A DNA stretch of 64,000 nucleotides from a virus. The notes beneath the pieces were generated by a model. It had not been told where the DNA came from, did not search any database, and was given only the letters and a program-made list of their open reading frames with translations. Within the stretch, counting starts at the first letter, position 1. Each line of letters opens with the position of its first letter. Made by a program: the position numbers and the translations under genes. Of the stretch, positions 30,683 to 64,000 are shown piece by piece. The DNA lies in the IMG/VR virus record IMGVR_UViG_3300044959_000237, positions 47,269 through 111,268 of that record; one strand, written 5' to 3'.

Positions 30683-33600
30683 CTATGCAAACAATTCAGG
30701 AAAATAATTTTCGATGTTTTTCTGTCTGACAATTCCATAACCCCTTACTTTCTCGATTCTGTCCATGTCTTTGTTCAACTCTTCCAAATTCAACTTTCCT
30801 ATCAGATTCTTGTCCAAAATATCAAGAGCATAATTTCGATATCTTTTATCGAGATCGTGTGTCGAATCCATGAATTCTGCAATTCCTGTCATGAAGTCGA
30901 AACCGGAAATCATTTTGAACAAAGGATAAACTATCAGTCCATTGATGAATGTCTTGAGTTCCTTTTTTCTGTTCCAAGGAAGCATTATGCCTATTTTCAC
31001 ATTCGAAAGCACTCGAATTTTGTCCATCAGATTCATGTTTTTCTCGAAAAGTGTGTTTTCTATGTAATTTATCCACAATTTGGATACTTCTTTCTCGTTC
31101 TTGACATAGAGAAGATCGAAATAAGACTTCAAAATTCTTCTTTTTATTTTATTTTCATGATTTTCATTTTCGAATTTCATTTTTTCGAGTATATTGTAAA
31201 TTTCCTGCAATTTTTTTCTTTCTTTCGAATTCAATTTATCGATGTAAAGCTCGTAAAGATCTGAAATGGTCATTTCTTTTTCTTCGAAATCGAATGAATT
31301 TTTTCTCAAAAATTTGCCAAGTTTCAGTATTTCGATGTTTTTTTCAGCTTCGTTTCGGGAAAAATTGACTTTTATGCTTTTTATTACACTTTCCTCACTG
31401 AGAGGAAGATCTTCCAATGAAGAACCAAGCAACAGAATGTTCAAAAAAGATTTTATTTCGTATTTTTTGGCAAATTTCATGAAATCGAAAGAAAATCCAT
31501 TTTTCTTTCGTTTTATGTACTGTCTCATTTCATCGATCATCTGTTCGACATTTTTTCCATGAACAATTTCTGGCATATTGTAGTAACCAAGATTTACCAC
31601 AAATTTCTTTATGTCATTTTCGAAAAATTTACCATAAGAACAGTAAAGATCACATCCAATGACAAGATCGTAAACCGAATCGGAAACACAGGAATTTGTT
31701 TCTTTGTTGAAAATCGAGATTCTGCCGGTAACTTCTCCGAATCTTTGTGCCAACCCGGTTTGATCCATGGCTTTCACTTTGAATCCATCGAAAACGGCTG
31801 CATCACAGATGATTTTCGTCAGAGTACTGATACCAGTTCCGCCAATACCAACTGTCAATATGTCGAAAGGTTTATCGATGTCATTTTTGTTTTTGATTGA
31901 CAAATTATCTTCAATTTTTGGAAGCTCGATTCGTGATTTTCGATTGTTGTTTTCAATTATGGCAAAACTCGGGCAATGTCCTTCCAGACAACTGGTGTCC
32001 AAGTTACAGGAACTTTCATCGATTTTTCTTTTATTTCCAAAAGGAGTATTTTCGACTTCTATGGCCAGACAATTGGATTTTCTGGAACAATCACCACAAG
32101 CATCACATATTTCGGAATTTATCATCACGGAAAAGTTTTCTTTTTTCAAAAGACCTCTTTTTTGTTTTCTTCTTTTTTCCGTAGCACACATCTGATCATA
32201 TATTATTACCGAAACACCATCGATTTCTTTGGCTTTTTTCATTGCTTCATTCATTTTTTCCTTTGGAAGAATTTCAACTTCCGACGGAAAATTTGCCCAA
32301 TTGTTTTCTCGAAAATAGTGACTTACCAAATATATTTTTTCGACTTTTTCTGCCAGAAGCTGTTTTGTCAAATTCAACAAAGACAATTCACCATCCAATG
32401 GTTGTCCTCCCGTCATTGCAACGGCTTGATTGTACAATATTTTGTAAGTGATTTTTGTTCTGGCTGCTACGGCGGCTCTTATGGCAAGTATTCCGCTATG
32501 AAAATAGGTACCATCTCCCAAATTTACAAAAATATGATCTCTTTTTGAAAATTTGGACGCAGATATCCAATTTACTCCTTCTGCTCCCATCGGACATACG
32601 GTTATTGTCGGCCTGTCCGGCATGAAATTGGCAAGATAATGACAACCTATTCCCAAAACAGCCATATCACCATTCAAAAGTTTTGTTCCGGTATTATGAG
32701 GACAACCGCCACAATAATAAGGGGTTCTTTTGATCTGTTTCGAAATTTCCGATATTTGTTCGACATTTTCGATAATGTTCGAATTTTTTTCGAATGATGA
32801 ATCTCTCAGATATTTTTTTATATCTCTGGTTTTCATATCCATCAAGGGAGAAACCAGATTCTTTCCGAAAATTCGAATTCTGATGAAATTTTCATTCAGA
32901 AATTTGTGTAAAAACAGCTCGAAAACTCCGCTTTTTTCTTCCAAAATCAATATTTCTTCTTTGTTTTTCAGAAATTCTTCCAATTTTTTCTTTTCCAACG
33001 GCCAAATACAACCAATTTTCAGCAGATCGAAATTCATTTTACTCGAATCGTAATTGTAAATTTTCATCAAATTGTGAAAAACTTTTCCTACGACAATAAC
33101 TCCTTTTCTGTTGTTTTCATTTTTTATTATTGTGTTTATTTCATTGCATTCCAAATATTTTTGCATTGCATGAATTTTCTGCTCGTGAATTCTTTTTTCT
33201 TGCTCCGGACCACTGTCTGGCCAACGTATCGAAACATCGAAGATTTCTCTTGGAACAAAGGGACGAAAAGATTTCAATTTTTCGAAATTTACCGTTTCAT
33301 AAGCATCTGCCAGATCACTCACGATTTTCAATGCGATCCAAGATCCTGAATAACGACTCAATTCGACTGCGTGAATTAGAAATTCTGATATTTCCTCTAC
33401 ACATGAAGGTGCCAGAACAGGAACATACCAAGATACCAGCGTCAAAGTAGTTTCATGTGGCATTGTACTGCTTTTACAATTATGATCGTCACCACATAAA
33501 AGAACAACACCACCTTTAGGTGAACTTCCGGCAAAATTGAAATGATGAATATGATCGCCGGATCTGTCGACACCCGGACCTTTTCCATACCATATTCCTA

Positions 33601-33910
33601 CAACTCCATCAGCATATTCTTCTTTTGCAGGACCGAACAATTTGTAATTTTGTGTGCCGGCGATTACGGCGCAAGCCAGTTCTTCATTCAATCCGGCATG
33701 AAAATATATCTTGTTTTCATTGAGAATTTTTTCTTTGAATTTTATTTCCTTGTCAAGTGAACTCAAAGGACTGCCTCGATATCCACAAAACAATGTGGCG
33801 GTTTTGTAATTTTTCTCTTCATCCAATTTTCTTTGTAACAAAGAACCGAGTATGATCGATTGCAGTCCTGTCAAATTTTTTTCTTTATCATCGAACCAAA
33901 AAAAATTCAT
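30683..33910 (-). CDS. Fused indolepyruvate:ferredoxin oxidoreductase family enzyme, 1,075 aa
   Basis: Start at MNFFWFDDK, with AAGGAAA upstream. Landmarks in order: GYRGSPLSSLD and GIWYGKGPGVDRSGD (alpha N-domain), YCGGCPHNTG, GIGCHYLANFMPDRP, MGAEGVNWI, GDGTYFHSGILAIRAAVA (TPP-binding), AMTGGQPLDG, MCATEKRRKQKRG, a cysteine set (CDACGDC, SNCLAIEV, SCLEGHCPSF) and GIGGTGISTLTKI with TGLAQRFGEVTGRI (gamma domain). This is the long fused type that oxidatively decarboxylates arylpyruvates or 2-oxoacids. No frameshift or lost motif is seen, so it looks functional. Highly unusual in a phage. Confidence 0.88.
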   Translation of the reverse strand: MNFFWFDDKEKNLTGLQSIILGSLLQRKLDEEKNYKTATLFCGYRGSPLSSLDKEIKFKEKILNENKIYFHAGLNEELACAVIAGTQNYKLFGPAKEEYADGVVGIWYGKGPGVDRSGDHIHHFNFAGSSPKGGVVLLCGDDHNCKSSTMPHETTLTLVSWYVPVLAPSCVEEISEFLIHAVELSRYSGSWIALKIVSDLADAYETVNFEKLKSFRPFVPREIFDVSIRWPDSGPEQEKRIHEQKIHAMQKYLECNEINTIIKNENNRKGVIVVGKVFHNLMKIYNYDSSKMNFDLLKIGCIWPLEKKKLEEFLKNKEEILILEEKSGVFELFLHKFLNENFIRIRIFGKNLVSPLMDMKTRDIKKYLRDSSFEKNSNIIENVEQISEISKQIKRTPYYCGGCPHNTGTKLLNGDMAVLGIGCHYLANFMPDRPTITVCPMGAEGVNWISASKFSKRDHIFVNLGDGTYFHSGILAIRAAVAARTKITYKILYNQAVAMTGGQPLDGELSLLNLTKQLLAEKVEKIYLVSHYFRENNWANFPSEVEILPKEKMNEAMKKAKEIDGVSVIIYDQMCATEKRRKQKRGLLKKENFSVMINSEICDACGDCSRKSNCLAIEVENTPFGNKRKIDESSCNLDTSCLEGHCPSFAIIENNNRKSRIELPKIEDNLSIKNKNDIDKPFDILTVGIGGTGISTLTKIICDAAVFDGFKVKAMDQTGLAQRFGEVTGRISIFNKETNSCVSDSVYDLVIGCDLYCSYGKFFENDIKKFVVNLGYYNMPEIVHGKNVEQMIDEMRQYIKRKKNGFSFDFMKFAKKYEIKSFLNILLLGSSLEDLPLSEESVIKSIKVNFSRNEAEKNIEILKLGKFLRKNSFDFEEKEMTISDLYELYIDKLNSKERKKLQEIYNILEKMKFENENHENKIKRRILKSYFDLLYVKNEKEVSKLWINYIENTLFEKNMNLMDKIRVLSNVKIGIMLPWNRKKELKTFINGLIVYPLFKMISGFDFMTGIAEFMDSTHDLDKRYRNYALDILDKNLIGKLNLEELNKDMDRIEKVRGYGIVRQKNIENYFPELFA

Positions 33911-33938
33911 CGTCGAGTTTCCTTGCTTTATTGAAAAC

Positions 33939-34697
33939 TCAAGATTTTTTCGCTGGTAATATGAAACTCCAATTCGTGGTTTCACTCTCGTGATATATTT
34001 CCATTGCACCGATTTGTACGATCTTGATAATTACTTTTTTATTCTTGTTTTTGTTTCCTGAAAAACAAAGTTTCATCGTGCTCAAAAATTCTACCAAAGG
34101 CCAGTACAACGGTTCATCGAACTCTACATTTACGGTAGCAAAAGAATATTCGACACCATGCAAAAGATTGGTGTTTTTTCCTCCTATGGAAAAAATCAAA
34201 TCATTTTCTTTCGTAAATGCAGAAAATCTTTTTTCGACAGAAGGAAAAATTGCTGCAAAACTCGAAAAATCATCGAATTTGTTTTCATCGACTTCGAGAA
34301 TTATATCCCAATTCGGTTCTTTGAATTTCGGTTGATTTGTTATTATATCAGGATGCATGAAACGATATACTGCATTGACTTTTCCATTTTCCGAATGAAA
34401 ATGCAATTCCGTAGGAATTTTATTTTTCTTGCCTTTTTCGTTTTCACTGATCAATTCGATTTCCGTGTTCAGAAAAACAGGGTGTCTTATCAGACCTTTC
34501 AACAAATTCAGATTTTTCAATCCAATTGCCGAAGAAAATTCCGGTATCGATTCTTTCGATTTTGCTTTGAGTACTATGGTTCTCGTATCGTTCATACATT
34601 CGATTTTGATGCCATTCTCTTCTGGAGTCAAAAGAACTTCGTCGGTTACGGGACTTACATAAGTAACAATATCTTCTAGAAATTTTCTTAATTGCAT
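33939..34697 (-). CDS. 45: Sliding-clamp-like protein, T4 gp45 type
   Basis: The 252-residue protein lies directly downstream of the polymerase genes. Two similar beta-rich halves are apparent (ECMNDTRTIVLKAK and later FSIGGKNTNLLHG), with a C-terminal TTNWSFILPAKKS. Length and repeated topology fit the T4 trimeric clamp, which tethers gp43 to DNA and activates late transcription at TATAAATA promoters. GGGAG stands 6 bases before the second of two adjacent ATGs, which is used here. Sequence identity to T4 is low; position is the main support. Confidence 0.62.
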   Translation of the reverse strand: MQLRKFLEDIVTYVSPVTDEVLLTPEENGIKIECMNDTRTIVLKAKSKESIPEFSSAIGLKNLNLLKGLIRHPVFLNTEIELISENEKGKKNKIPTELHFHSENGKVNAVYRFMHPDIITNQPKFKEPNWDIILEVDENKFDDFSSFAAIFPSVEKRFSAFTKENDLIFSIGGKNTNLLHGVEYSFATVNVEFDEPLYWPLVEFLSTMKLCFSGNKNKNKKVIIKIVQIGAMEIYHESETTNWSFILPAKKS

Positions 34698-34761: not shown

Positions 34762-36576
34762 TTAAAATTCGAACAATTCCGACAATTCCGTATTGTCCAA
34801 TATCGGATCGATGTTCCAATCTTCCAGAGCAGAGAAAAGATTTTTCAGCTTTTTGTTTACAATCGTGTTTTCCATTTCATCGGTATCCACTTGAAAATTT
34901 TTCAACCATTCCGGTAAATGTTCGATATCGAATGGCAAAGCCAGACTTTTGATGTCATGAACATTCTTTTTAAGAAAGAAAACCAGCACTTTTGCTCCAT
35001 CGACAATCTGTGAGGAAACATAGTCCCTGTAATATTTTTTCATTTCGTTCCAATTTATGGATGCCATGACATGTCCCGGTATTCTCGGTGATTTCAATTG
35101 ATCTATGTATTTTTTCAATTTGATTTTTTCTTTTTTGTCAATTGTGTTTTTCAGAAGTTTTTCATATTCGTGGATCACTTTTTCATCTTTGGATTCTTCG
35201 TACAGTTTCGTGTAAAATTCGAGTTTGTTGACTTTTTTTGGATATCCTTTCTGCCAATCCGGCATTTTTCTGAAATCTTTTTTGAATTTTTTGATTTTCG
35301 AAAAAATATGATTCTTGTCTTTATTGGACAAAATATCATAGAGAAGTTCTTCCAGAAACTTTTGTACAAAAATTGGTGTATCGGAACGTTTCAGTTCCAA
35401 ACCCATGGCCTTGATTTCACCCAATTTACCATTTTTGTCCAATCTTTTTCCTTCTTTGTCGAAACATAACAGGGCATATCTCTTTTTTGTAATAAAATAA
35501 CCTTTGGATGCCACAATTTCTCTTGCTGCCCTTATGTTTGCAAATTCTTCCCTGACATTGAACTCGTTTTTCATGAATTCGTTGAAAGATTCGTTTACAA
35601 GTTGAGCAACTTCATCGTAAAGTTTTATCGAATTTTCTTTGGTCCATTCGATATCCGAAAATTCTTTCAAATGATAAGCACTGAAATAAGAAGAATTGTG
35701 AACCAGAATTCTGTTTGCAAAAAACCACGGCATCTTTTTACTGATACCAATATCGTACACATGATTGTATTCTTTTCCCAACATTACAACACTTTCGAGA
35801 TACGTTTCCTGAATATCACCGGAATAATCTACTATCAAAATGGGTTTTTCTGACATTTTTTTGAATTTTTTTTCGTCGAGAAGAATTTTCGGACTGAATT
35901 TAATCAGTCTGTTGTTTTTTTTATTCCAATATAAAAGACTGTGATCTTCCGTAACTTTTACGGTATTTCCGCTGAGTAATTTTATTTGATAGATTTCCTT
36001 GTCTACATAATGTCGATATATATAATCGAATCCTGTTTCTGTCATGAAACAATTCTTTTTATCGAAACTGGCTACTTTCAGAAAATCGGAGCAGGCATAT
36101 TCCTTGTTTTTCGAAAAATATTTTTTCTCACAAAGATCGAAAAGATCTTTTATATCTATTTCACCGACATTGGTTATGATTTTGGTATCTTCCGTAACAC
36201 TGTCCGTATCTCCATACAATATTGCTTTTCCTTCGTGATCGTACTCTCCGGTCAGAATTTCGTTTATTTTTGCATTCATGTGTTTGGTAATACATCTTCC
36301 GGTCATTGTCACACTTTGTCCGATTCTGTTATCGGCAAATTTCATATGTTGATTCAACAATGATCCATAAACGGAATTGAGTAGAATTTTCGTAGCATAT
36401 TGACGAAAATCGAAGTTTTCTGCCAGAATTCTGGTTTGATTTCTGTTTTTGCTCAAAAGTTTGCCATCTTTTATTTCAAGATTGTACTTTTTCATGATTT
36501 CGCTCAGTTTTTTCAAATCTTTTTCTTTTATGATTTCTTCGATATTCAATATATCTTCGTAACTTTCGAGATTCAT
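34762..36576 (-). CDS. 43: DNA polymerase family B, C-terminal half, with mini-intein (gp43B)
   Basis: Starts at MNLESYED by ATGA overlap with the upstream half. It carries motif B (KILLNSVYGSLLNQ near residue 63) and motif C YGDTD/S near residue 121, the latter interrupted by a 169-residue intein (residues 126-294). After the intein follow KKRYALL (motif with KKRY) and a thumb domain. Splicing would restore YGDTDSSYFS, essential for activity. The mature C-half is about 435 residues. It must pair with the upstream half carrying the exonuclease and motif A. Confidence 0.9.
   Translation of the reverse strand: MNLESYEDILNIEEIIKEKDLKKLSEIMKKYNLEIKDGKLLSKNRNQTRILAENFDFRQYATKILLNSVYGSLLNQHMKFADNRIGQSVTMTGRCITKHMNAKINEILTGEYDHEGKAILYGDTDSVTEDTKIITNVGEIDIKDLFDLCEKKYFSKNKEYACSDFLKVASFDKKNCFMTETGFDYIYRHYVDKEIYQIKLLSGNTVKVTEDHSLLYWNKKNNRLIKFSPKILLDEKKFKKMSEKPILIVDYSGDIQETYLESVVMLGKEYNHVYDIGISKKMPWFFANRILVHNSSYFSAYHLKEFSDIEWTKENSIKLYDEVAQLVNESFNEFMKNEFNVREEFANIRAAREIVASKGYFITKKRYALLCFDKEGKRLDKNGKLGEIKAMGLELKRSDTPIFVQKFLEELLYDILSNKDKNHIFSKIKKFKKDFRKMPDWQKGYPKKVNKLEFYTKLYEESKDEKVIHEYEKLLKNTIDKKEKIKLKKYIDQLKSPRIPGHVMASINWNEMKKYYRDYVSSQIVDGAKVLVFFLKKNVHDIKSLALPFDIEHLPEWLKNFQVDTDEMENTIVNKKLKNLFSALEDWNIDPILDNTELSELFEF
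35695..36201 (-). other. Mini-intein in polymerase motif C
   Basis: 169 residues. Block A SVTEDTKII begins with Ser1, block B is GNTVKVTEDHSLL with the T-x-x-H motif, block F is NHVYDIGIS and block G is FFANRILVHN, followed by Ser+1. No homing endonuclease domain fits in this length. The insertion point YGDTD/S equals the pol-c-like site used by archaeal and algal-virus polymerase inteins. The Ser1 nucleophile and the HN penultimate pair imply standard splicing. Confidence 0.92.
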
Positions 36577-38294
36577 TGTTTCATCTTCTCCAAAATTTCT
36601 TCCGGTAACTCGAAACCGTCTTCGGACAGTTTGAAAAATATTTTTGCCAATCTCTGTAACTTTTTTCGATTTGTGAACCATTCTTCGAGAAGTATCGGAA
36701 CAAGTCCTTTTTTATCCATGATGAATATGGTTCCATTTGCACTCAAACTCAGATCTTTTCCACCAAAGATCATTTCGTATATTTCTTTTGCTTTCAATTC
36801 GTAAATTTCTTTTGTATCGTTCATTTCAAGTTGCAGAATATCATCTGTCTGTAACATGATCATGTTATATTCCAGTATTCCGAACAGATCGTGCATTGCT
36901 TCCGATGCGGTTTTGCATCCTTCTTTTATTTTGTTGAGAATGAAATTATTTGTATATGTAGGCAAAACCTGAGCAAATATCTTTTCCGGACTCATATTCA
37001 AGCTTCTGATGATCGAAGGATAAAGAGAGTTTATATCCACGCTTCCGACAAAATCATGCAGACCTTTTTTCGGATATATGACAAAAGCGCCGGCAACACT
37101 TTCATCTTTATCTTCGTTTTCACTTTCATTTTCGTCTTCGTTTTCTTCACTATCATTCGAAACAATTCGATTTGTAAAATTGACTTTTTCCCAATGATGA
37201 ATGAAATCTTTGTCCGGACATACCATTTTCAAATCGTGAGATTTTAACGTCAAAGCTTGTTCGATCAAAGAGATGCTGCCAAGAGTAGTGGGAAGTGTCA
37301 CACAGTTGAGATGAGAAACGATGTTACTCAATTCGAGATATTTTTTCTTCTGATCTATTTTGTAAAGAATCATGACGTCCTGTTTGGAATATTCGATGAA
37401 TTTTCTGAAATCGTTCCTGTACAAATCATCCAATGTTCCTTTGTATGCTACCTTCTTTTCACCAATTTCCTTTTCTCCTATGAAATCCAGTTTGTAACTT
37501 GGAACTTCTGACAATGAATGTTTCATGTACAATTCGAGATAATCCATATGATGTCTTCCAGACAACTCATAGGTAAGAAAATCTTTGTTGAATTGTGTAA
37601 ATATTCTTCTTTTCGGAGGAGGAAAATTTTCCAGACAAAGTCTTTTTATTTCATTTTCTCCTAATATTATTTTCGTTCTCTCCACAATATAAGGAATATC
37701 GTATTTTTTCGAATTCCAACCGGTCAAAACATCAACATCTTGTATATATTTCAAAAATTCGTCGAGTAAGTTTTCTTCATTGTCGAATATGAAAACATCT
37801 TCCAATCCTTCAAGTTCCTTTTCTGCCTGTTTCCTGTTCATTGTTTTTGGATACAAAGTAAATGTCATATTATGTTTTTCATATGTTGTATATATTGAAA
37901 TTGTACATATTCGGTTCGTAGGTTTTTCCGGAACGGCAAAACCTCCATTTTCCAAATCGAATTCGACTTCGATATCGAAAAATCCTATATTCAATTCAGG
38001 AAGCTCGGAATTTCTGTAATATTTCTCCAAAATTTTGTTTTCAATTGAAATATCACTTTCAAATGTTCGTATTCCATTCTGTCTTGTTTTTTTCAATTCG
38101 AAATAGAACTTTTTGAGATCCTTGAACTCCTTTTTTTTGGCTTTTGTTCCAAAAAGAGTATTGTACATTCCATTGTCGTCTTCATAGTAGAATTCCAAAA
38201 CAGGATCGTATGTTTTTACAATTCGTTTTCTGTTTTTTCTTTCAGAAACGAAAACCTTGTTTTTTTCTTTGTCATAATGAACATCTACATACAT
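36573..38294 (-). CDS. 43: DNA polymerase family B, N-terminal half (gp43A)
   Basis: The 573-residue protein contains the 3'-5' exonuclease motifs FFDIEVEF near residue 104, GWNSKKYDIPY near 197 and YSKQDVMILYK near 308, and the palm motif A DINSLYPSIIRSL near 421. It stops before motif B, so the split falls in the fingers region, as in split gp43 genes of some Aeromonas T4-like phages. Its last codons overlap the C-half start as ATGA, giving coupled, near-equal synthesis. An acidic insert (EENEDENESENEDKDE near residue 390) is unusual. The ribosome site is weak. Confidence 0.92.
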   Translation of the reverse strand: MYVDVHYDKEKNKVFVSERKNRKRIVKTYDPVLEFYYEDDNGMYNTLFGTKAKKKEFKDLKKFYFELKKTRQNGIRTFESDISIENKILEKYYRNSELPELNIGFFDIEVEFDLENGGFAVPEKPTNRICTISIYTTYEKHNMTFTLYPKTMNRKQAEKELEGLEDVFIFDNEENLLDEFLKYIQDVDVLTGWNSKKYDIPYIVERTKIILGENEIKRLCLENFPPPKRRIFTQFNKDFLTYELSGRHHMDYLELYMKHSLSEVPSYKLDFIGEKEIGEKKVAYKGTLDDLYRNDFRKFIEYSKQDVMILYKIDQKKKYLELSNIVSHLNCVTLPTTLGSISLIEQALTLKSHDLKMVCPDKDFIHHWEKVNFTNRIVSNDSEENEDENESENEDKDESVAGAFVIYPKKGLHDFVGSVDINSLYPSIIRSLNMSPEKIFAQVLPTYTNNFILNKIKEGCKTASEAMHDLFGILEYNMIMLQTDDILQLEMNDTKEIYELKAKEIYEMIFGGKDLSLSANGTIFIMDKKGLVPILLEEWFTNRKKLQRLAKIFFKLSEDGFELPEEILEKMKQ

Positions 38295-38492: not shown

Positions 38493-39998
38493 CTAGGAAA
38501 TTTTCTTTCTTTTTTTCACAACATCGTTTTCATCTACGAAAATTATTTCGATAGGAAATCCCCACAAATCTTTCAAATTGGATAATGCCATGTAACTTTC
38601 TTTGCTCAAATCCATATTATTGTACATATTGTATTGTAAGGTCATCACTCTGTCACCGACCAATTTGATATTTTTTACGAAAATATCGGGAAAAAACATG
38701 ATTGGTGAATAATTGTTTGCAAGAGTTTTTCTTATTTCTCTGTAACCTCTTTCATTGTGTATTTTTTCCACCAGATAACTGTTTTTGGAAGAATCATCAT
38801 GTATTTTTATCAATTTGTTGTCCCGAATGAACTTTGGTGTCAGAAACTGTTGAATAAAGCTATCATCGCGATAATTTTTTACTGTATTCAAAATGACATC
38901 TTTCCAATTTTTTCCAGTCAGATAAGGAAAATACTCCGAATCTTCTTCTGTAGGATTTTCACAAATTCTTTTTATTTCCATGAACATATGAAAACCAAGA
39001 TAGTAAGGATTGAAATTTGGATTCAAAACACCGAGATCTGGTTGATTTACAACCGCTGTATGCAAATCTATGAATTCCAACATCGAACCATCTGTAATGA
39101 GACCTTTTTCCCATAAACGATACATTATGTAATAATGAACGAAACAAGCGAAACCTTCATTCATTACTTTGGTAAGTATTTGAGGATAGAAATATTCTGC
39201 AATTTTTCTTACAATTCTTACAATTTCTTTCTGCCAATCTTTCAGAACAAGACTGTTTTTCTCTATAACATAAAGAATATTTTCTTCATCCAAATGTTTT
39301 GTAAACTTTTCTTCCAAATTTTCATTTTTGTTTTTTTCTTTTTCCTTTTTTATCATCCAATCGGTGGTTTTTTCCATGAAATGATCATAGTTTTCTTCCA
39401 AAAGTTTTATTTTTTGTTGTAAAATATAATGTTCTTTCTGAACATTTGTTTTTTTCTTTTTTATTTTGTTGATTCCCATGAACATGAGAGAATGGCATTT
39501 GTCCAACAATTCTTCTACTTCATCACCATATTTTTCTTCACACTTTCTAATGTAATCTTTTGCAAAAGTCAAATATTGCAAAATGAAATCCGCATGAGTC
39601 TGTTCTCTGAACAAATAATTGTTCTTGAAAAAATGATTGTGACCAAAAGCAGCATGAGCAATTACCAATAGTTGTGTCGTGGCGGTGTTGTTTTCCATCA
39701 GATAATTTATACAAGGATTGGAATTTATTACCATTTCGTATGCCAACGGCATACCTTTTCTGAATTCTTTCTGATGTACAAGAAACTTTTTACCAAATGA
39801 CCAGTGATTGTAAAATATTGGCATTCCATTGCTTGCATAAGCATCCAGCATTTGTTCACTGGTAACAATTTCTATTACGTTCGGATATGTATCCAGATTC
39901 AACTCTTCTTTAGCTATTTCTTCACATAGCTCCAATGATTTTTCTATAAACTCGAAATTCCACTCCGAACCGGTATAAAATGGTTTGTTTTTCGACAT
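38493..39998 (-). CDS. SpoVR/YcgB family protein
   Basis: The 501-residue protein has the family opening (W-x-FE...IEKSLELCEEIAKEE), MLDAYASNGMPIFYNHWSFGK, the long conserved IAHAAFGHNHFFKNN and a domain with NEGFACFVHYYIM. Length equals the bacterial family (about 500). SpoVR affects spore cortex in Bacillus and is linked to stress-sensing PrkA/YeaH systems in other bacteria, but the biochemical role is unknown. AAGGT lies 5 bases before ATG and a late-type promoter about 25 bases upstream. A surprising gene for a phage. Confidence 0.9.
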   Translation of the reverse strand: MSKNKPFYTGSEWNFEFIEKSLELCEEIAKEELNLDTYPNVIEIVTSEQMLDAYASNGMPIFYNHWSFGKKFLVHQKEFRKGMPLAYEMVINSNPCINYLMENNTATTQLLVIAHAAFGHNHFFKNNYLFREQTHADFILQYLTFAKDYIRKCEEKYGDEVEELLDKCHSLMFMGINKIKKKKTNVQKEHYILQQKIKLLEENYDHFMEKTTDWMIKKEKEKNKNENLEEKFTKHLDEENILYVIEKNSLVLKDWQKEIVRIVRKIAEYFYPQILTKVMNEGFACFVHYYIMYRLWEKGLITDGSMLEFIDLHTAVVNQPDLGVLNPNFNPYYLGFHMFMEIKRICENPTEEDSEYFPYLTGKNWKDVILNTVKNYRDDSFIQQFLTPKFIRDNKLIKIHDDSSKNSYLVEKIHNERGYREIRKTLANNYSPIMFFPDIFVKNIKLVGDRVMTLQYNMYNNMDLSKESYMALSNLKDLWGFPIEIIFVDENDVVKKRKKIS

Positions 39999-42287: not shown

Positions 42288-43856
42288 TCAAAGAACTATT
42301 ACAGGCATTGGTTCTTTCGAATTTTCTTTTTCGAGATCATCGAAATCTTCTTCGCGGCCTTTTAAATTTTTCTCCGGACCATAATATCTTCCAATGATCA
42401 TGTAAAGACGAATCACTACCAAAATTGCAGAAACAAGATCATCTTCACAACCTCTTTTTGCAGAAAAATTGCTACCGGTTCTCACGTAATTTTTCAATTC
42501 TGAAATCAGAAGTCTGCTATTCAAACTTATTTCATTTGTTTCGACAAGTCTCTTGAATCTCGCACAGGCTGCCATTTTATTTTTTGTTGTTGTGATAAGT
42601 CCTTTTCTTCTTTTTCTTTTTATCTGTCCCGGTACTTTGGGTTCATTTATCAATATTCCATCGATTTTTTCTTCGCCAATCTCCTTCAAAAGAGAAACTA
42701 TGGCTTCACCGATACCATTGTTTTCGAAACTCCAATATATTTCGTTGTTCTTGAGCTGTTTCAGACAACTACAAATGTATTTTATTACCGATAACTGATT
42801 TTTTACATCCGATTTGTTGTCAGACCATTCGGCAATCTGACACATATCATCCAAACGAAATACCTGAATTGCCGAATGATCTCCTCCAGTACCCGTTGCC
42901 GGATCCAGACCTATCAGATAAACACTCGAAGGAGACAAAGGTTCGTACCATCTCAGTTTTCCGTTCATTTCCGTTCTGATTGGATTTTTTCCTTTCAGAT
43001 TGTACAAAACAATCTGATCGATCAAGGTTTCGTCACTTTGAATGAACGAACAATTACATTCTCTTTCGAAGATTTCTCTTCCGAGAATCGATATCTGATC
43101 GGCAGCCCATTTTTCGTCTCTTTCCGGATGTGCATTCCATTTGAATGTTATGGCCTTGTATCCGTTTTCTCCAATTCCTCCCGGTCTTTCCATACCATTT
43201 TCGTCACATGTTTTCGTAGCAGCAAAATATATTTTTGCAAACAAATCTTCATCGGAATTTGGCGTACTTGTTATTATACACTGTCCACCCGTGGACAATG
43301 TTGGTTGAACAGCACTCCAGAATTCTTCTGCTATTTTTGGTGGTACGAATGCGAACTCGTCCAGATACAACAAACTCAAACTCAAACCTCTGGCTGCATT
43401 TGGACTCGTAGCTCTACTCAGAATTCTGCTGCCATTGTCGAATTCGATCGAACCTTTGTTGTATGTTATAACTCCCGGTTTGATCCACTCGGGCAATTCT
43501 TCATACGCGTATCTTACTCTGTGCATGATTTCAAGAGCCTGTCTTTCGAGTTGTGCAAGTATGAGTATTGTTTGATTGTCCTGAAATATGGATTTCCATA
43601 AAATATAACATGCTGCACAAGTGGTTTTTCCCATTTGTCTTGCTGTCAATGCAATGACATTTTTGTAATCGTGAAATGTTTTTATGATTTCTTTTTGAAA
43701 ATCGTAGGGACGAAATTTGTCAGCACCACGAAATGTCTGTATGGTAAAGAAATTTTCGGCAAAATAAAGGGGATCTTTTATACATAACGAAAGATGTTTT
43801 ATTTTTTCCTTGTCGAAAGCCGATTTTTGTCCAGCTTTCTTTAACAGTGATTCCAT
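42288..43856 (-). CDS. 17: Large terminase subunit, T4 gp17 type
   Basis: The 522-residue protein has an ATPase domain with Walker A ARQMGKTT near residue 70, Walker B SLLYLDEF near 157 and the coupling ITSTP near 192, then a RNase-H-like nuclease with GLDPATGTGGDHSAI near 310 and late acidic residues (CEDDL near 473). It pumps DNA into the prohead and makes the packaging cut. It lies downstream of the gp16-like small subunit and two unknown genes, as in T4-type packaging operons. Confidence 0.95.
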   Translation of the reverse strand: MESLLKKAGQKSAFDKEKIKHLSLCIKDPLYFAENFFTIQTFRGADKFRPYDFQKEIIKTFHDYKNVIALTARQMGKTTCAACYILWKSIFQDNQTILILAQLERQALEIMHRVRYAYEELPEWIKPGVITYNKGSIEFDNGSRILSRATSPNAARGLSLSLLYLDEFAFVPPKIAEEFWSAVQPTLSTGGQCIITSTPNSDEDLFAKIYFAATKTCDENGMERPGGIGENGYKAITFKWNAHPERDEKWAADQISILGREIFERECNCSFIQSDETLIDQIVLYNLKGKNPIRTEMNGKLRWYEPLSPSSVYLIGLDPATGTGGDHSAIQVFRLDDMCQIAEWSDNKSDVKNQLSVIKYICSCLKQLKNNEIYWSFENNGIGEAIVSLLKEIGEEKIDGILINEPKVPGQIKRKRRKGLITTTKNKMAACARFKRLVETNEISLNSRLLISELKNYVRTGSNFSAKRGCEDDLVSAILVVIRLYMIIGRYYGPEKNLKGREEDFDDLEKENSKEPMPVIVL

Positions 43857-46744: not shown

Positions 46745-47905
46745 TCAGTAAAGTATCAGTTTCTTTCTGAGAATATCGGAAGAAAAATCGCTTTCTTTCT
46801 TTTTTCCCACGCTTGCTGTTCTGCTTTCGAGAATTCGATTGAAATTTTCAATATCACTACTATTTATGGATACATTGCCGAAATTTACGTTCTTCTTTTC
46901 CGATCCGCTGAAAAATTCATATTCATTTTTACCAAAAGGATTGAATGAAGATGTTCTGGAAGGTTTTTCCAATATTGGAGCTTTTGTTATTGGTTTCGAA
47001 GAATTTACGAATACATTCTTTCTTCCTTGCAATCCGCTTTTCATGAAAGCATCTCTGTTGTCTTTGAACAGAGTTTCCAAATTCGATGTATTCGAAAAAC
47101 TTTCGACTTCCAGAAATTCTCCAATATCCTTACGTCTGCCTGTCTGTTCGAGAATTTCTTCGGTAATTTCCTGATTTACGGCTTCCCAAACCACGCCTTC
47201 GTAAGAAAAAGTCAAGGTTATATATTGTGGCGAGCCCATATCCCGATAACTGTTCGTATCATATGAAAAAGATGTTATTTTCGGATGTATCAACGAGTAT
47301 TTGTTGAATTTCTTATGATTGAATTCGTAAACTTCCAATTTTTCGAAAAAATAATTCGATGAAAAGGAAAAAACATTATCGGTAGCTATTTCCATAGATG
47401 GTGGATTGAAACCGAAATCTTTGTCTTTACTTGCAGGAATATATTCTGCCGTGGTAACGTCGTAATTCCAGCTTTGAAGACTGGCATGACCGTCGCCATA
47501 GTAATATTGAAAATAATCGTGAAACATCGAAAAAACTTTCTGATCCACAGTATCGAACAAAGTGACGGTTACAGGACTGTAATCGACTCGACTTTGAACA
47601 ATTCTTTTTTTGTTGTATTGATTCAATGTAGAAGTATTGAAATTGAGTGAAGGTCTTGTTATACTTTCCACAAGAAGACTTATGCCATCTTGCCAATTGG
47701 AGTAATTTTTGTTGAAAGTCAGATCGTTTCTTACAAAATTTACCCAGAAAAGAAATCGATATCTTGGTACTCGATTGAGTTTGGTATTGAATAAACTGAA
47801 TACCTTTGGAGCAATTTTGTTCGATTTCGTGTACAGATTCGGTTCAGGAGAAGTTTTTCCTACGGCAAAATTTATGTTTTTTTCCTGTTCTTTCGATGTT
47901 GGCAT
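46745..47905 (-). CDS. Baseplate tail-tube initiator-like protein, T4 gp48/gp54 type
   Basis: Start at MPTSKEQE with GGAAG 6 bases upstream. The 386-residue protein has the tube-like segment VPRYRFLFWVNFVRND, SLLVESITRPSLNFNTSTL and YSPVTVTLFDTVDQKVF, followed by SPQYITLTFSYEGVVWE, all in the pattern of gp19/gp54-type tube domains. These proteins cap the baseplate and nucleate tube growth. The C-terminal 120 residues are low-complexity Ser/Asn/Lys-rich. Whether it equals gp48 or gp54 is unclear. Confidence 0.7.
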   Translation of the reverse strand: MPTSKEQEKNINFAVGKTSPEPNLYTKSNKIAPKVFSLFNTKLNRVPRYRFLFWVNFVRNDLTFNKNYSNWQDGISLLVESITRPSLNFNTSTLNQYNKKRIVQSRVDYSPVTVTLFDTVDQKVFSMFHDYFQYYYGDGHASLQSWNYDVTTAEYIPASKDKDFGFNPPSMEIATDNVFSFSSNYFFEKLEVYEFNHKKFNKYSLIHPKITSFSYDTNSYRDMGSPQYITLTFSYEGVVWEAVNQEITEEILEQTGRRKDIGEFLEVESFSNTSNLETLFKDNRDAFMKSGLQGRKNVFVNSSKPITKAPILEKPSRTSSFNPFGKNEYEFFSGSEKKNVNFGNVSINSSDIENFNRILESRTASVGKKKESDFSSDILRKKLILY

Positions 47906-54277: not shown

Positions 54278-55300
54278 TCAGATTTCCAGTCCGATTTCGA
54301 CCAGTTTCGAGATGTGCAGAACTCCCTTGAGTATTTTTCTGTTGTCGACAATTTCGATGACCGGTGCAACATTGTATCTTTTTCTTGTCATGATTCTCAG
54401 AACATCGGATGCGAAACTGTCCGGATTCACGAAAAAGAACTCCGTATTCATGATATCTTGCACTTTTTTTCGATTTATGTCGACATTTTCCAGACTCAGA
54501 ACTCTTCTCAGATCGAAATCCGTGACAATTCCCTGAACGACAGGATTTTCTTCTTTCGAATTTTTCACGACGACACACAGATTCTGTCTCAACGTCGTCA
54601 TTCGTAGAATCACGTTTTTGAGATTTTCGTCCGGATTCACACAAGCCGTGGAGGAAAGAGAAGTCATGATTTCGGAAACACGTACGAGTTGAATTCCCAG
54701 TTTTCCGCCCGGATGAAAATTTCTGAACGATTCCCTGTCGAAACCGATCATTCTGCTCGCGGTCACCGATATCGCGTCACCCAACAGCAGGCACAGAAGA
54801 GTACTTGTCGTGGGCGATACGTTCATATGACAGAATTCCGAATTCATCTGCAGAGGAATCACGACATCACTGTGCAATGCCAGAAAACTTTTCGAATTCG
54901 AAGTCATGGAAATCATCGGAATTCGATTTTTTCTGCAATAGAGAACCAGATCCTGCAATTCTTTCGATTCGCCGCTTTTGCTCAGAATCACGAGCATCGA
55001 TTTCGACGTGATTCTTCCGAGATCACCATGACTTGCTTCCGAAGGATGCAGATAGAAAGAAGGAAATCCCAGACTTGCCAATGTCGCCGAAAGTTTCTGT
55101 GCAATGTAACCACTTTTTCCGATTCCGGAAAATATTACATATCCGCCGGAATTTCTACATTCGATCATATGTCGTATCGTCGAATGCAACCATTCCAGAT
55201 TTCGATTTTCGAAAAATTCTTTCAGGGAAGCAATCGAATTTTTTGCTTCGTCGATGCAGGAAAGAAAAATTTTTTCGATTTCGTCGAAATTTTCGTTCAT
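54278..55300 (-). CDS. kpsF: Arabinose-5-phosphate isomerase, KpsF/GutQ family
   Basis: Start at MNENFDEIEK with GAGGAA 6 bases upstream. The 340-residue protein has a SIS domain with IFSGIGKSGYIAQKL, ATLASLGFPSFYLHPSEASHG, ILSKSGESKEL and HPGGKLG, followed by two CBS domains (SEIMTSLSS and VQDIMNTEFF). It converts ribulose-5-P to arabinose-5-P, the Kdo precursor for LPS. In a phage it could alter host LPS. Length and motifs match the bacterial enzyme; it also sits among tRNAs. Confidence 0.93.
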   Translation of the reverse strand: MNENFDEIEKIFLSCIDEAKNSIASLKEFFENRNLEWLHSTIRHMIECRNSGGYVIFSGIGKSGYIAQKLSATLASLGFPSFYLHPSEASHGDLGRITSKSMLVILSKSGESKELQDLVLYCRKNRIPMISMTSNSKSFLALHSDVVIPLQMNSEFCHMNVSPTTSTLLCLLLGDAISVTASRMIGFDRESFRNFHPGGKLGIQLVRVSEIMTSLSSTACVNPDENLKNVILRMTTLRQNLCVVVKNSKEENPVVQGIVTDFDLRRVLSLENVDINRKKVQDIMNTEFFFVNPDSFASDVLRIMTRKRYNVAPVIEIVDNRKILKGVLHISKLVEIGLEI

Positions 55301-55326
55301 TTTTTTCCTCGAAAAAAAAATTCCAT

Positions 55327-55400
55327 TGGAGCGGGTGATGGGAATCGAACCCACATCTTCAGCTTGGAAGGCTGACATTCTACCTTTGAACTACACCCGC
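55327..55400 (-). tRNA. tRNA-Gly (TCC)
   Basis: Acceptor GCGGGTG/CACCCGC, anticodon loop CTTCCAA gives TCC, T arm GTGGG-TTCGATT-CCCAT, encoded CCA. Fits a cloverleaf. Confidence 0.93.
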
Positions 55401-57630: not shown

Positions 57631-58719
57631 TCAGATTCCAGTCACGAGAAATACACCTGTCGATTTTTTGATTATGAAATAAAATCGGTTCGCATTCGAA
57701 TTGACGACATTTCCCGGTATCAGTGTGACTCCGGTACCTGCCTGTATGTTTCCATTGTTCTGTTCGAAATAGATACCGACCGAATCGCCAATCGCAAATC
57801 CCGAATCGATAATTCGAAATGTAATTCCGTCTTCGGCAATCAGGGTTCGATTGTTGTATGCACCGGATACGCCGATGATTCCGGGAGAAGTTGCCGTATT
57901 GAATATCGAAGCACCGAAATTCAGTTTCGACGGTTTCGCACTTGCAAGAATTTCGTTTCCGTTGGAATATATTTCGATATTTGCACTTTCTTTCAATGTC
58001 TTCGAAGAAATTTCATTGCTGCTGACACTCGCAACAAGTGCTTCACCCGTACCGAGAGAACTGACCCGTACCTCTTTCGAATGAATTGTAATTTCATTGG
58101 CAGTAATTGTCAGGGTTATGTTGTTTCCGGCTTTCAGAGTTCTTGCCGTAAGCTCGTCGTGAAAAGAATTCGTGCTCGTAACCGTTTTCAGAATTGCATG
58201 ACCTGTACCAAGTGAACTGACTGTAAGATTTTTCGCATTGATGACCAGTTGTCCGGAATTGTCGGTGAAATATATGTTGTTTCCGGATTGAATCTTGAGA
58301 AAACTCATCTCGTCTGCACTGAGTTCCGATACAATTGGTATACCGGTAGCAGGATTCGAACTTACAGTCAGTAATCGGTTCGGTGTAAAAACAGACCACG
58401 AATTGAATGCAGTTTTGATATATTCCTTGTTGTTCACAATCGAATATACGATATATCCGATTGGTACATTTATGAATTCCCATGAACCATTCGACCACAA
58501 TGCAAGTTTTCCTTCCTGTCCGGACCATATGCCTGTCGCCGGTGACGTGACAACATAAACCGATCCTTCGGTCGGACCGGAAGGAACCGTATTTCTCAAT
58601 TCCTGAACAACATGCTGAACAACCGATTCGAGAATACGCATGTTGCGATTTATCGTAAGTTCTTTCGATGCCTGATTCGGTACCAGATCCCGAAGTCCCA
58701 GAATTGGTGTTTTCGTCAT
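57631..58719 (-). CDS. Tail-associated protein with N-terminal DUF2793-like domain, 362 aa
   Basis: Residues 1-90 (MTKTPILGLRDLVPNQASKE, EGSVYVVTSPATGIWSGQ, GKLALWSNGSWEF) match the pattern of DUF2793 proteins of alphaproteobacterial phages and gene-transfer-agent tail clusters. The rest is made of repeated beta units around VSSLGTG (residues about 165 and 220), typical of fibre stalks. It starts by ATGA overlap with the 505-residue gene. Probably a tail fibre or receptor-binding component. The repeats allow copy-number change. Confidence 0.78.
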   Translation of the reverse strand: MTKTPILGLRDLVPNQASKELTINRNMRILESVVQHVVQELRNTVPSGPTEGSVYVVTSPATGIWSGQEGKLALWSNGSWEFINVPIGYIVYSIVNNKEYIKTAFNSWSVFTPNRLLTVSSNPATGIPIVSELSADEMSFLKIQSGNNIYFTDNSGQLVINAKNLTVSSLGTGHAILKTVTSTNSFHDELTARTLKAGNNITLTITANEITIHSKEVRVSSLGTGEALVASVSSNEISSKTLKESANIEIYSNGNEILASAKPSKLNFGASIFNTATSPGIIGVSGAYNNRTLIAEDGITFRIIDSGFAIGDSVGIYFEQNNGNIQAGTGVTLIPGNVVNSNANRFYFIIKKSTGVFLVTGI

Positions 58720-60233
58720 GAAATATTTTCCCTGGCTACGATTCTCGTTGTGACAGGAGAAGTTGTTTCTCTTGCAATTTCGATTTTCAGTGGCGGTCGT
58801 AACAGCTCGACAGTATTTATCAATGATATTTGCAGGTCGTCTACGAGAAAATCTTCGAATGCGAATGAATTTCCGGTATTTTTTCCGCTTATCGAAATCA
58901 TCAACGAAGAGTCTCCGCTCGTGTTTCTTGGTCCAAATCTGGCACTCAGTTGATGAATGACAAATTCGGAATCATTCGATGCATTCAAAATCACACTGTT
59001 TCCGGCATCGGTCCGATATACCACTCCATTTCGAATCCATTTGCCTTTCAGTGTAATTTTTGCAGAACCGCCCCGAACATCACCATTCCTGTAACCGACA
59101 TGTATTTTCACGATGTAACAATCATCCGGTTTGCCATTCTGGGCAGATATGAAAGTACGAAGTGAAAAAACATTCGAATGTACCAATCTGATGTGAAGAA
59201 ATCTGGATCCTTCGATTACAGGACAATTCGGAAAATCATCATAGGAAAATACCGAATAATGAACACCATAGAGATTGTCATGATACCAATATGCCAAACC
59301 GGATTCGAAACCCGAATTCGGATGATGAACGACAGAGCCGATCTGATTCAAAGAGTCCGAAGAAACAACAATGGAAGTTCGGGTTGTCGTAAAATCTTTC
59401 ACGATTCTGTCATCTTTGTCGTAAAGTACCACCCTGTACAATTCGATGTTGTCATCGGGAGGAATGTCGGAATAATTCGTCCATTCCGAATAACAACGAT
59501 TTTTTCTTTTCCATGTCACCGACAAAGAACTCGAATCGATATGATTTACGGAAATATCTTCCACTTTTGGAGGCACGAGAGGAAAAAATCTCGAATTCAG
59601 GTTGCCAGATGTGGAAACATTCGAATCGAATGGAGTGAAAATACAGGAAGTCACTCCTTCCCGACTCAGATGAATTCTGTTCATGTCACTCTGAATGTCA
59701 TTGATGTAATATGCTTCGCACGACAATTCCATTACCGGAGCCGAGTTCGAAAGATATTCGACAATATCGTATGAATTGTTCGAAAACAGAAGAAGATTTC
59801 GAAAAACGACTTTTTTACTCGTAATCGCAGATGCATGTTCGTACAGATGAAAACCGTAACCTTTCGTCGAATTTCCCGTCATGAGAAACGGTCCGATATT
59901 CGTGACACGAAAATCCAGTTCTCCCGGATTTTTCGCTATCGAAGGAACAACTTCTTCATCACCGAATTCCACTTCGATTTTTCCTCTGGTGACAAGATTC
60001 GGATTGATATTCGAAGGTATTCCCGACAGTTTTACAACCCGACCTTTGACAAGAAATCTGTCGATATCGTGTTTCACGGAATCGATTACAAGAGTTGCAT
60101 TGTTATTGATACCCGATCTTCCTTCTCTTGTCGTGAATACACGAATGTATCTTGCATATTTTACGGAATTCGAACTTTCGAAATCATCGAAACATGGACC
60201 ATCGACAAAGCGAAGTTCGAGATTCGACGACAT
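58716..60233 (-). CDS. Tail or adhesin protein with Fn3-like and jelly-roll-like regions, 505 aa
   Basis: The N-half is beta-rich with NNNATLVIDSVKHD and RGKIEVEFGDEEVV. Near residue 225 PPKVEDISVNHIDSSSLSVTW is a good fibronectin-III-type start. The C-half (GLAYWYHDNLYGVHYSVF, then FLHIRLVHSNVF) resembles carbohydrate-binding jelly rolls. It is coupled to the DUF2793-like gene, forming one adhesin unit. No signal peptide, as expected for a virion protein. Confidence 0.72.
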   Translation of the reverse strand: MSSNLELRFVDGPCFDDFESSNSVKYARYIRVFTTREGRSGINNNATLVIDSVKHDIDRFLVKGRVVKLSGIPSNINPNLVTRGKIEVEFGDEEVVPSIAKNPGELDFRVTNIGPFLMTGNSTKGYGFHLYEHASAITSKKVVFRNLLLFSNNSYDIVEYLSNSAPVMELSCEAYYINDIQSDMNRIHLSREGVTSCIFTPFDSNVSTSGNLNSRFFPLVPPKVEDISVNHIDSSSLSVTWKRKNRCYSEWTNYSDIPPDDNIELYRVVLYDKDDRIVKDFTTTRTSIVVSSDSLNQIGSVVHHPNSGFESGLAYWYHDNLYGVHYSVFSYDDFPNCPVIEGSRFLHIRLVHSNVFSLRTFISAQNGKPDDCYIVKIHVGYRNGDVRGGSAKITLKGKWIRNGVVYRTDAGNSVILNASNDSEFVIHQLSARFGPRNTSGDSSLMISISGKNTGNSFAFEDFLVDDLQISLINTVELLRPPLKIEIARETTSPVTTRIVARENIS

Positions 60234-60238
60234 TTTCT

Positions 60239-60499
60239 TCAGAACCTCCAGCCATCGACCGAATCTTCATCATCATTCGAATTGCCAGATGCGAATTCCG
60301 AACCTGCCCGTATCGTCGATGAATTCGGGAATCGTGATTTCCAATGTGATTTTCGACGAATTTCGGTATTTTTCACTTCGGAAATTTTCGAAATCTTCCG
60401 AAGAACGATTTTCTTTCCTGTTGCAGGCAACAGAATACAGGCCGAATTCTTCTTCGATGTTTCCGAATGTTTTTCACGCGGTGTTTCGAAAAGAATCAT
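60239..60499 (-). CDS. Small basic protein upstream of the adhesin gene, 86 aa
   Basis: Start at MILFETPREKH because GAGGAAG stands 8 bases before, and its ATG overlaps the TGA of the 45-codon ORF upstream (TGATG). The protein is basic and Ser-rich, ending NSNDDEDSVDGWRF, 5 bases from the adhesin ATG. A chaperone or capping role for the adhesin is possible from position only. Confidence 0.55.
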   Translation of the reverse strand: MILFETPREKHSETSKKNSACILLPATGKKIVLRKISKISEVKNTEIRRKSHWKSRFPNSSTIRAGSEFASGNSNDDEDSVDGWRF

Positions 60500-60636
60500 C
60501 ACGGCTTCTTCCTCTTTCGATTTCGTTTCTTCTGCAAATTTTTTCGACTCGCGAAATTTTCGTTTTTCGTGATGCATTTCATTCTGCAATCGGGAAATTC
60601 TGCATTTTTTCGAACGAACATTTTTTTTTTCGCCAT
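60499..60636 (-). CDS. Short basic ORF, 45 aa
   Basis: MAKKKMFVRKNAEFPDCRMK and a strongly basic tail (KKRNRKRKKP). Overlaps the next gene as TGATG. A late-type motif lies just before the ATG, leaving a leader of only about 6-7 bases. Too short for firm calling. Confidence 0.4.
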   Translation of the reverse strand: MAKKKMFVRKNAEFPDCRMKCITKNENFASRKNLQKKRNRKRKKP

Positions 60637-60877: not shown

Positions 60878-61189
60878 TTCGTATCATGATTTCCCGATGT
60901 TTTCCGAATTTTCGGAATTTGTCGGAAGTGTTCGTCATATTGTACAAAATTACATTCGACAATGTCGAAATCGATTTTCCGTGAATTTCTGCAATTTTCG
61001 CAGTTCCCGAATCGGGCAATGTTGTTTTCTTCGTGCTTCTTCTGGCAAGTTCGAAGTTTCTTTTTCCCGAATTCGAAATCATCGAAGAAAAGAATTTTCA
61101 AGCTGCAATTCGTGTCTGTCTTTTCGAAAAAATTTTTTTTCTATGTTTTTTTTTTTCGTGTTTCTTCGAGCAGAACATTCGTGACTGTC
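60878..61189. other. Spacer before the repeat array
   Basis: No convincing gene on either strand; several short overlapping frames only. TTCGAA and AAAATTTTT words dominate. It separates the adhesin cluster from the palindromic repeat array. Confidence 0.5.
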
Positions 61190-64000
61190 CGGAAAAAAAT
61201 GTTCCGGAACAGATTCGAAAAAAAAGTGCCCGGAACATATCGGGAAAAATGTTCCGGAACATATCAGGAAAAATATTCCGGAAAATATCGGGTAGAATGC
61301 TCTGTTCCGGAATATGTTCGAAAAAAAAAATGCCCGGAAAATACCGAATAAAATGTTCCACAACAGGTTCGAAAAAATGCTCGGAACATATCGGGAAAAA
61401 TATTCCGGGACATATCGGGTAGAATGTTCCGAAAAATATCGGGTAGAAAATAGAATGTTCTGTTTCGGAACAAATTCGAAAAAAAGTGTTCGGAACATAT
61501 CGGGTAGAATGTTCCGAAACATATCAGGGAAAATATTCCGGAATATATCGGGTAGAATGTTACGGAACATATCGGGGAAAATGTTCCGGAACATGTTAGA
61601 AAAAAAATGCCCGGAAAATATCGGATAAAATTTTTCGGAAAATACCGAATAGAATGTTCCGGAACATGTTCGAAAAAAGTGTTCGGAACATATCGGGGAA
61701 AATGTTCCGGAACATATCAGGGAAAATATTTCAGAATGTTCCGGAACATATCGGGTAGAGTGTTCCGGGACATATCGAAAAAAATGTTCCGGAACATATC
61801 GGGTAGAATGTTCTGTTTCGGAACATGTTCGAAAAAAAAATGCTTGAAACATATCGGGAAAAATTTTCCGGAAAATATCAGGGAAAATATTCCAGAATGT
61901 TCCGGAAAATATCAGGGAAAATATTCAGGAATATATCAGGGAAAATATTTCAAAATGTTCCGGAACATATCAGGGAAAATATTCAGGAATATATCGGGTA
62001 GAATGTTCCGAAACATATCAGGGAAAATATTCAGGAATATATCGGGTAGAATGTTCCGGAACATATCGGGTAGAATGTTCCGAAACATATCAGGGAAAAT
62101 ATTCAGGAATATATCAGGGAAAATATTCAGGAATATATCGGGTAGAAAATAGAATGTTCTGTTTCGGAACAAATTCGAAAAAAAATGTTCGGAACATATC
62201 GAAAAAAAAATGTTCCGGAAAATATCGGGTAGAATGTTACGGAAAATATCGGATAAAATTTTTCGGAATATATCAGGGAAAATGTTCCGGAACATGTTCG
62301 AAAAAAATGCCCGGAAAATATCGGATAAAATATTTCGGAATATATCGGGTAGAATGTTCCGGAGCATATCGGATAAAATATTTCGGAATATATCGGGTAG
62401 AATGTTCCGGAGCATATCGGATAAAATTTTCCGGAAAATATCGGAAAAAATGTTCCAGAATGTTCCGGAAAATATCAGGGAAAATATTCCGGAAAATATC
62501 AGGGAAAATATTCAGGAACATATCGGAAAAAAAAAATGTTTCGGAAAATATCGGGTAGAATGTTACGGAAAATATCGAATGAAATATTCTGGAATTTTTC
62601 GGAACATATCAGATGAAATGTTTCGGAAAATATCGAGTAGAATGCTCTGTTCCGGAGCATGTTAGAAAAAAATGCCCGGAAAATATCAGGGAAAATTTTC
62701 CGGAACATATCGGGTAGAATGTTCCGGAACATATCAGGTAAAATATTCCGGAACATATCGGGTAGAATGTTCCGGAAAATATCAGGGAAAATATTTCGGA
62801 ACATGTTCGAAAAAAATGCCCGGAAAATATCGGATAAAATTTTTCGGAATATATCGGGTAGAATGTTCCGGAAAATATCGGATAAAATTTTTCGGAAAAT
62901 ACCGAATAGAATGTTCCGGAGCATATCGGGGAAAATGTTCCGGAACAGGTTCGAAAAAAGTGTTCGGAACATATCGGGTAGAATGTTCCGGAACATATCA
63001 ATTAGGGAAAATATTCCGGAATATATCGGGTAGAATGTTCCGGAACATATCGGATAAAATTTTTCGGAATATATCAGGGAAAATGTTCCGGAACATGTTC
63101 GAAAAAAGTGTTCGGAACATATCGGGGAAAATGTTCCGGAACATATCGGGTAGAATGTTCCGGAAAATATCGGATAAAATTTTTCGGAAAATACCGAATA
63201 GAATGTTCCGGAAAATATCAGGGAAAATATTCCGGAACATATCAGGGAAAATATTTCAGAATGTTCCGGAACATATCGGGTAGAAAATAGAATGTTCTGT
63301 TTCGGAACAAATTCGAAAAAAAAAAATGCCCGGAAAATATCGGATAAAATTTTTCGGAAAATACCGAATAAAATGTTCCGAAACAAATTCGAAAAAAGTG
63401 CTCGGAACATATCGGGTAGAATGTTCTGGAACATATCAGGTAAAATATTCCGGAACATATCAGGTAAAATATTCCGGAACATATCGGGTAGAATGTTCCG
63501 AAACATATCAGGGAAAATATTCAGGAATATATCGGGTAGAATGTTCCGGAACATATCGGAAAAAAAATGTTCCAGAATGTTCCGGAACATATCGGGTAGA
63601 ATGTTCCGAAACATATCAGGGAAAATATTCAGGAATATATCGGGTAGAATGTTCCGGAACATATCGGAAAAAAAATGTTCCAGAATGTTCCGGGACATAT
63701 CGGGTAGAATGTTCCGGAACATATCAGGTAAAATATTCCGGAACATATCGGGTAGAATGTTCCGGAACATATCAGGTAAAATATTCCGGAACATATCGGG
63801 GAAAATGTTCCGGAACATATCAGGGAAAATATTTCAGAATGTTCCGGAACATATCGGGGAAAATGTTCCGGAACATATCAGGGAAAATATTTCAGAATGT
63901 TCCGGAACATATCGGGTAGAATGTTCCGAAACATATCAGGGAAAATATTCAGGAATATATCGGGTAGAATGTTCCGGAACATATCGGAAAAAAAATGTTC
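61190..64000. repeat. Long array of imperfect 24-nt palindromic repeats, open at the window end
   Basis: The dominant unit is ATGTTCCGGAACAT followed by ATCGGGTAGA or ATCAGGGAAA; variants start ATATTCCGGAATAT or end GTTCGAAAAAAATG. The 14-bp core is a perfect dyad. Because 24 is a multiple of 3 and the core reads the same on both strands, long frames are open in both directions (for example MFRNISGR on plus and MFRNILPD on minus). Units differ by point changes, occasional 9-nt insertions and frame changes. The array continues past 64000. No tRNA, CRISPR spacer or conventional gene is seen within. Confidence 0.95.

Follow-up and report, generated by a model that had tools for sequence, protein, structure and literature searches.

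The locus described here raises the question of whether a kilobase-scale array of short palindromes at the end of a phage contig has been selected as a repeated binding site or has grown by runaway expansion of a short unit. The window, by which we mean the whole stretch of 64,000 nucleotides that was analysed, corresponds to positions 47,269–111,268 of a 111,268-bp record. The array starts at about 61,190 and extends to 64,000 of the window (no strand assigned), and its right end is the last base of both the window and the record. Because the contig stops inside the array, its length of at least 2.8 kb is a lower limit.

The array and its genomic setting

The initial annotation described about one hundred related 24-nt units arranged in tandem over at least 2.8 kb, and this array as such is real. 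TRF reports periods of 24 and 48 bp, the 48-bp period extending over 61,195–63,993, autocorrelation peaks at 24, 48, 72, and 96, and wrap-around alignment cuts the array into 118 units (partial units counted) with the consensus ATGTTCCGGAACATATCGGGTAGA. When the 14-mer is matched with up to one mismatch, there are 53 matches in the array, as compared with 0 expected or found in shuffles. No second copy of the array and no shared 20-mer was found elsewhere on the contig. Directly to the left, the stretch at 61,120–61,189 (no strand assigned) aligns locally to the reverse complement of the array with a score of 43, where the maximum in 60 shuffles was 39; this weakly similar stretch may consist of decayed units and is probably the decayed edge of the array.

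Judged by its sequence, the contig represents part of the genome of a jumbo myovirus related to T4. The large terminase (42,288–43,856, minus strand) puts it among the Phosso/PA5oct/Munch/Atu_ph07 jumbo myoviruses, with 47.5% identity to the terminase of Sinorhizobium phage Phosso and about 43–45% to those of PA5oct, Munch, XaC1, and Atu_ph07. The contig encodes RecA-like, UvsW-like, and DnaB-like proteins along with a split family B DNA polymerase, which extends over two overlapping ORFs, one of them with a weak intein-splicing match (34,762–38,291, minus strand). It also carries PrkA, DUF444, and SpoVR, the bacterial yeaG-yeaH-ycgB stress set, here in a phage (L010:12502–15818, plus strand, and window 38,493–39,995, minus strand), with the third member of the set lying far from the first two. 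Pyruvate:ferredoxin oxidoreductase and TPP-enzyme domains occur together in a 1,107-aa protein encoded at 30,683–34,006 (minus strand), and a KdsD-like arabinose-5-phosphate isomerase lies among tRNA genes at 54,278–55,375 (minus strand).

The array stands 5′ of two minus-strand tail-like genes (57,631–60,233), past a stretch without a recognised gene. The first of these encodes a 362-aa tail-fibre-like protein with DUF2793 (57,631–58,719, minus strand), and the second, which is the solid gene nearest the array, encodes a 505-aa protein with a weak tail-protein match (58,716–60,233, minus strand). A 116-aa ORF of no family (60,239–60,589, minus strand) lies between this tail gene and the array. 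Over 53–64 kb, Rfam found tRNAs only. In record 95–108 kb (window ~47.7–61 kb), the frequency of TTCGAA is about two- to fourfold that in most of the contig, and G+C is up from about 0.32 to about 0.42. A terminase relative, L013, matches at 94% over 7.8 kb and ends before the array. At L013:1–334 (window about 49,875), it diverges from the window into a stretch that, as read from its translation, is a candidate IS200/IS605-type transposase, and in the window a 9-bp repeat, AAAATACAG, present 7.6 times, follows the divergence point.

Mosaic structure and nested duplications

The 68 indel-free units comprise 40 distinct sequences, in which recurring dyad and spacer variants appear in mosaic order; they use 13 spacer types, the most frequent of them 27 times. 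Exact duplications of 50–114 bp are found at spacings of 48, 58, 108, 320, and 1,418–2,161 bp. The youngest visible tandem duplication is that of a 108-bp block (63,472–63,693, plus strand; 114 bp exact), an exact copy of which, 101–108 bp long, recurs at 63,893–64,000. A 58-bp tandem duplication, made up of a 24-bp and a 34-bp unit, lies at 63,784–63,916 (plus strand; 75 bp exact). The region at 61,600–63,319 (plus strand) has many 50–79-bp exact matches to segments ~1.4–2.2 kb rightward, and these are the trace of a kilobase-scale segmental duplication. From the left edge to the right end of the array, the identity of units to the consensus goes from 0.72 to 0.82 and the share of recurring 24-mers from 24% to 92%.

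Variable sites are strongly linked between position 18 and position 3 of the following unit (z 16), and linkage is about zero between positions 12 and 18, which is the pattern expected of shuffled copies. Since linkage is lost between positions 12 and 18, exchange between copies seems to have taken place, its junctions falling within or close to the conserved ATATC. This would put the exchange junction near ATATC and not at the dyad.

One short unit follows itself head to tail over kilobases, with nested and higher-order duplications and a mosaic of variants, as in satellite DNA. The anatomy, in which mosaic variants and nested exact duplications lie between a left edge that has decayed and a right end of greater uniformity, matches that of satellites growing by unequal exchange. 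We consider it probable, at roughly 0.6, that this is a mostly neutral satellite array that arose from slippage and unequal recombination. A founder 24-bp unit would have multiplied as replication slipped and copies recombined unequally, new unit variants would have come from point mutation and truncation, and these variants would have been shuffled into higher-order blocks of 48, 58, and 108 bp and ~1.5 kb. The driving process would be T4-type recombination-dependent replication, which is to be expected because the phage encodes RecA-like and UvsW-like proteins. The array would be close to neutral, and the palindrome would be an incidental property of the founder unit that might help hairpin-driven slippage but that is not clearly maintained itself.

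Some observations count against a neutral satellite. The variation among units is concentrated at third bases, as described below, and neutral drift does not predict this. Dyad pairs are in slight excess when all units are counted (536 vs 517 in shuffles), a count that is inflated by duplicated units. Given the compactness of phage genomes, one would not expect them to carry kilobases of idle DNA. The satellite reading is also weakened in that the relatives compared are distant, with terminase identities below 50%. If the array is mostly neutral, satellite DNA can evidently build up in a phage driven by recombination, and the array offers a small system in which to watch turnover.

Related arrays in other genomes

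To find related arrays, we ran exact, spaced, and degenerate patterns against IMG/VR and GTDB and BLASTN against phages and plasmids. No array match was found by pattern or BLASTN in the genomes of IMG/VR, INPHARED, PLSDB, and GTDB, from which records very near the window's own were possibly left out. The sole match to the spaced TTCCGGAA pattern, L014, is an in-frame collagen-like tail-fibre repeat on an unrelated contig, which shares TTCCGGAA by chance. With TRF, neither the complete Phosso and Atu_ph07 genomes nor the stretches analysed of PA5oct, Munch, and XaC1 yielded a comparable array. The largest tandem repeats in these related jumbo genomes have units of 285, 189, and 84 bp in 2–4 copies, and their many-copy repeats look like proline- or glycine-rich coding repeats. 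The initial annotation had named lack of array conservation in related genomes as something that would refute its reading; the array is indeed absent from the related genomes compared, but these relatives are distant. The neighbouring tail proteins led to no relatives, and no close relative covering the array locus was found, so that for turnover the comparison consists of absence from distant relatives and of L013, which ends before the locus. A keyword search of two jumbo-phage reviews brought up no passage on tandem, satellite, centromere, or palindromic arrays.

The dyad and protein binding

It had been proposed from the sequence that each unit carries a perfect dyad, and this is wrong. 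There are 25 exact copies of ATGTTCCGGAACAT and 29 perfect 14-bp palindromes in total, and the 14-bp dyad is perfect in only 28 of the 89 ungapped units, although about 86% of dyad pairs are kept. The two central base pairs, 6/9 and 7/8, are broken in 29 and 14 of these 89 units, and a compensating change opposite them was never found there. Among the 31 distinct 14-mers, dyad pairing amounts to 170 as compared with 166 in shuffles (P 0.13). Covariation is seen at pair 3/12 only (P 0.007, distinct units), with a linkage z of 4.8–6.6 that is far under the z of 16 for neighbouring non-dyad sites. The dyad was also said to be mostly kept while bases vary between units, but it is not significantly less diverse than the spacer (mean pairwise diversity 0.159 vs 0.224, permutation P 0.23). 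A dyad that is more conserved than its spacer and that carries compensatory changes, as expected under selection, is therefore not what these units contain. The spacing is kept in the sense that 59 of the 91 core-to-core steps are 24 bp, but about a third deviate, with steps of 28, 29, 34, 36, 48–52, 72, or 98 bp, and the positions of the site centres follow no helical periodicity (resultant 0.04 at 10.5 bp). From these comparisons, we conclude that preservation of the palindrome by selection is not clearly supported.

A protein-binding array, that is, an iteron-type origin, a centromere-like partition site, a packaging site, or a regulator-titrating decoy, in which a dimeric protein would occupy the dyads of many neighbouring units, is an unlikely reading of these data. 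The founder motif is symmetric, the 53 sites with at most one mismatch and the proportion of dyad pairs kept are in keeping with binding, and some dyads have A-tracts beside them, an arrangement that loosely recalls the semi-palindromic iterons of RepA_N type in the phage satellite PLE (PMC7145576). However, a selected binding site fails its tests because the dyad breaks are uncompensated, the extra dyad conservation is not significant, the spacing is variable and unphased to the helix, and distant relatives have no counterpart. The copy number of ~118 is also far in excess of that of the iteron and parS arrays known to us, and no Pfam partition or initiator match was found among the proteins scanned of this fragment contig. 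Between the two possibilities of the initial annotation, binding-site selection and runaway expansion, it is the latter that the anatomy fits.

A further suggestion, which we regard as quite doubtful, is that the array could be a centromere- or origin-like element of a jumbo phage, in which more than 100 degenerate dyads would be bound cooperatively by a phage protein for segregating, replicating, or packaging the genome, with the decay of single sites tolerated through copy number. If it is protein-bound, the array would count as a partition or origin element of an unusual kind. The array is unusual for a phage, but a conserved dyad as the ground for interest does not hold. RNA folding z scores of −12 and −14 in the array and an excess of terminator-like sites (19 vs 5.0 expected) were both discounted, since mutual pairing of tandem palindromes is built into such a sequence.

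Coding potential of the units

Variation among the units is concentrated at every third base, where diversity is 0.35 as compared with 0.08 and 0.13 at the other two (P 0.0036), and third codon positions fall on variable bases in both the plus frame MFRNISGR and the minus frame MFRNILPD. This three-base periodicity is the main observation left unexplained. It hints that the array might be a decayed or unusual coding repeat, in which an octapeptide would have been encoded on the minus strand (MFRNILPD) or the plus strand (MFRNISGR) and the frame would since have been lost. The units obey the pattern ATN TTY MGR AAN ATA TCR GGN ARA, synonymous changes are in excess in the minus frame (26 of 56 vs 29% expected; P 0.005 without correction for the six frames), and the neighbouring tail genes are coded on the minus strand too. 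On the minus strand, the longest open stretch reaches 444 codons, more than when the order of units is shuffled (P 0.002–0.03), but the longest array ORF, which was not called as a gene (62,499–63,818, minus strand; 439 aa with MFRNILPD/YPICSGTF repeats), changes register inside itself. Moreover, 19 of the 91 core-to-core steps are not multiples of three, so the frame is broken. The two strands had been described as open in the repeat frame, and five of the six frames are in fact stop-free in the consensus unit, but none is open through the whole array, which has 14–21 stops in every minus frame and 9–29 in every plus frame. No homologue of the array ORF turned up in IMG/VR, phages gave nothing beyond weak matches of repeat type and low identity, and array ORFs have no credible Pfam domain, the Pfam matches being weak or compositional. 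Tape-measure matches of the array ORF at ~25% identity were judged to be low-complexity similarity. We treat the present array as non-coding and hold a coding origin to be improbable.

An assembly artefact, with units in the wrong order or number or with the array misjoined to the phage contig, is very improbable. In its favour, this is an uncultivated-virus contig that ends within the array, the right end of the array is highly repetitive, and the array was found on no second contig. Against it, no exact repeat is longer than 114 bp, so that the order can be settled by reads or k-mers exceeding this length; divergence is greater at the left edge, which seems to grade into the flank; and the adjoining genes are phage tail genes.

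Comparison with known systems

The array resembles a CRISPR array in its regularly spaced palindromic repeats, but its spacers are shared variants and not unique ones (13 types in 68 indel-free units), and no cas gene was seen among the proteins scanned. It resembles the partition sites parS, parC, and tubC in having repeated short sites, but has far more copies, which are degenerate, and no ParB/ParR/TubR-type protein gave a Pfam match among the proteins scanned of the partial contig. Iteron origins, including those of RepA_N type (PLE, PMC7145576), share tandem semi-palindromic units, some beside A-tracts, whereas the array has ~118 units with variable spacing and a dyad that is not clearly maintained. 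Instead of a few near-identical, helix-phased direct repeats, there are the 40 distinct sequences among 68 indel-free units and no 10.5-bp phasing, and no Rep-family initiator gave a Pfam match among the proteins scanned of the partial contig. The coding repeats of phage tail fibres (L014, and collagen-like ones in Phosso and Atu_ph07) are like the array in their 24-bp or multiple-of-three period and tail-gene neighbourhood, but they keep frame and the array does not.

In eukaryotic chromosomes, satellite arrays of kilobase size that have higher-order structure are a textbook feature. Eukaryotic satellite and minisatellite DNA of the alpha-satellite type is like the array in its short monomer, mosaic variants, nested duplications, and more diverged edge, and the array differs from it in lying in a phage and in being of kilobase scale over its visible part.
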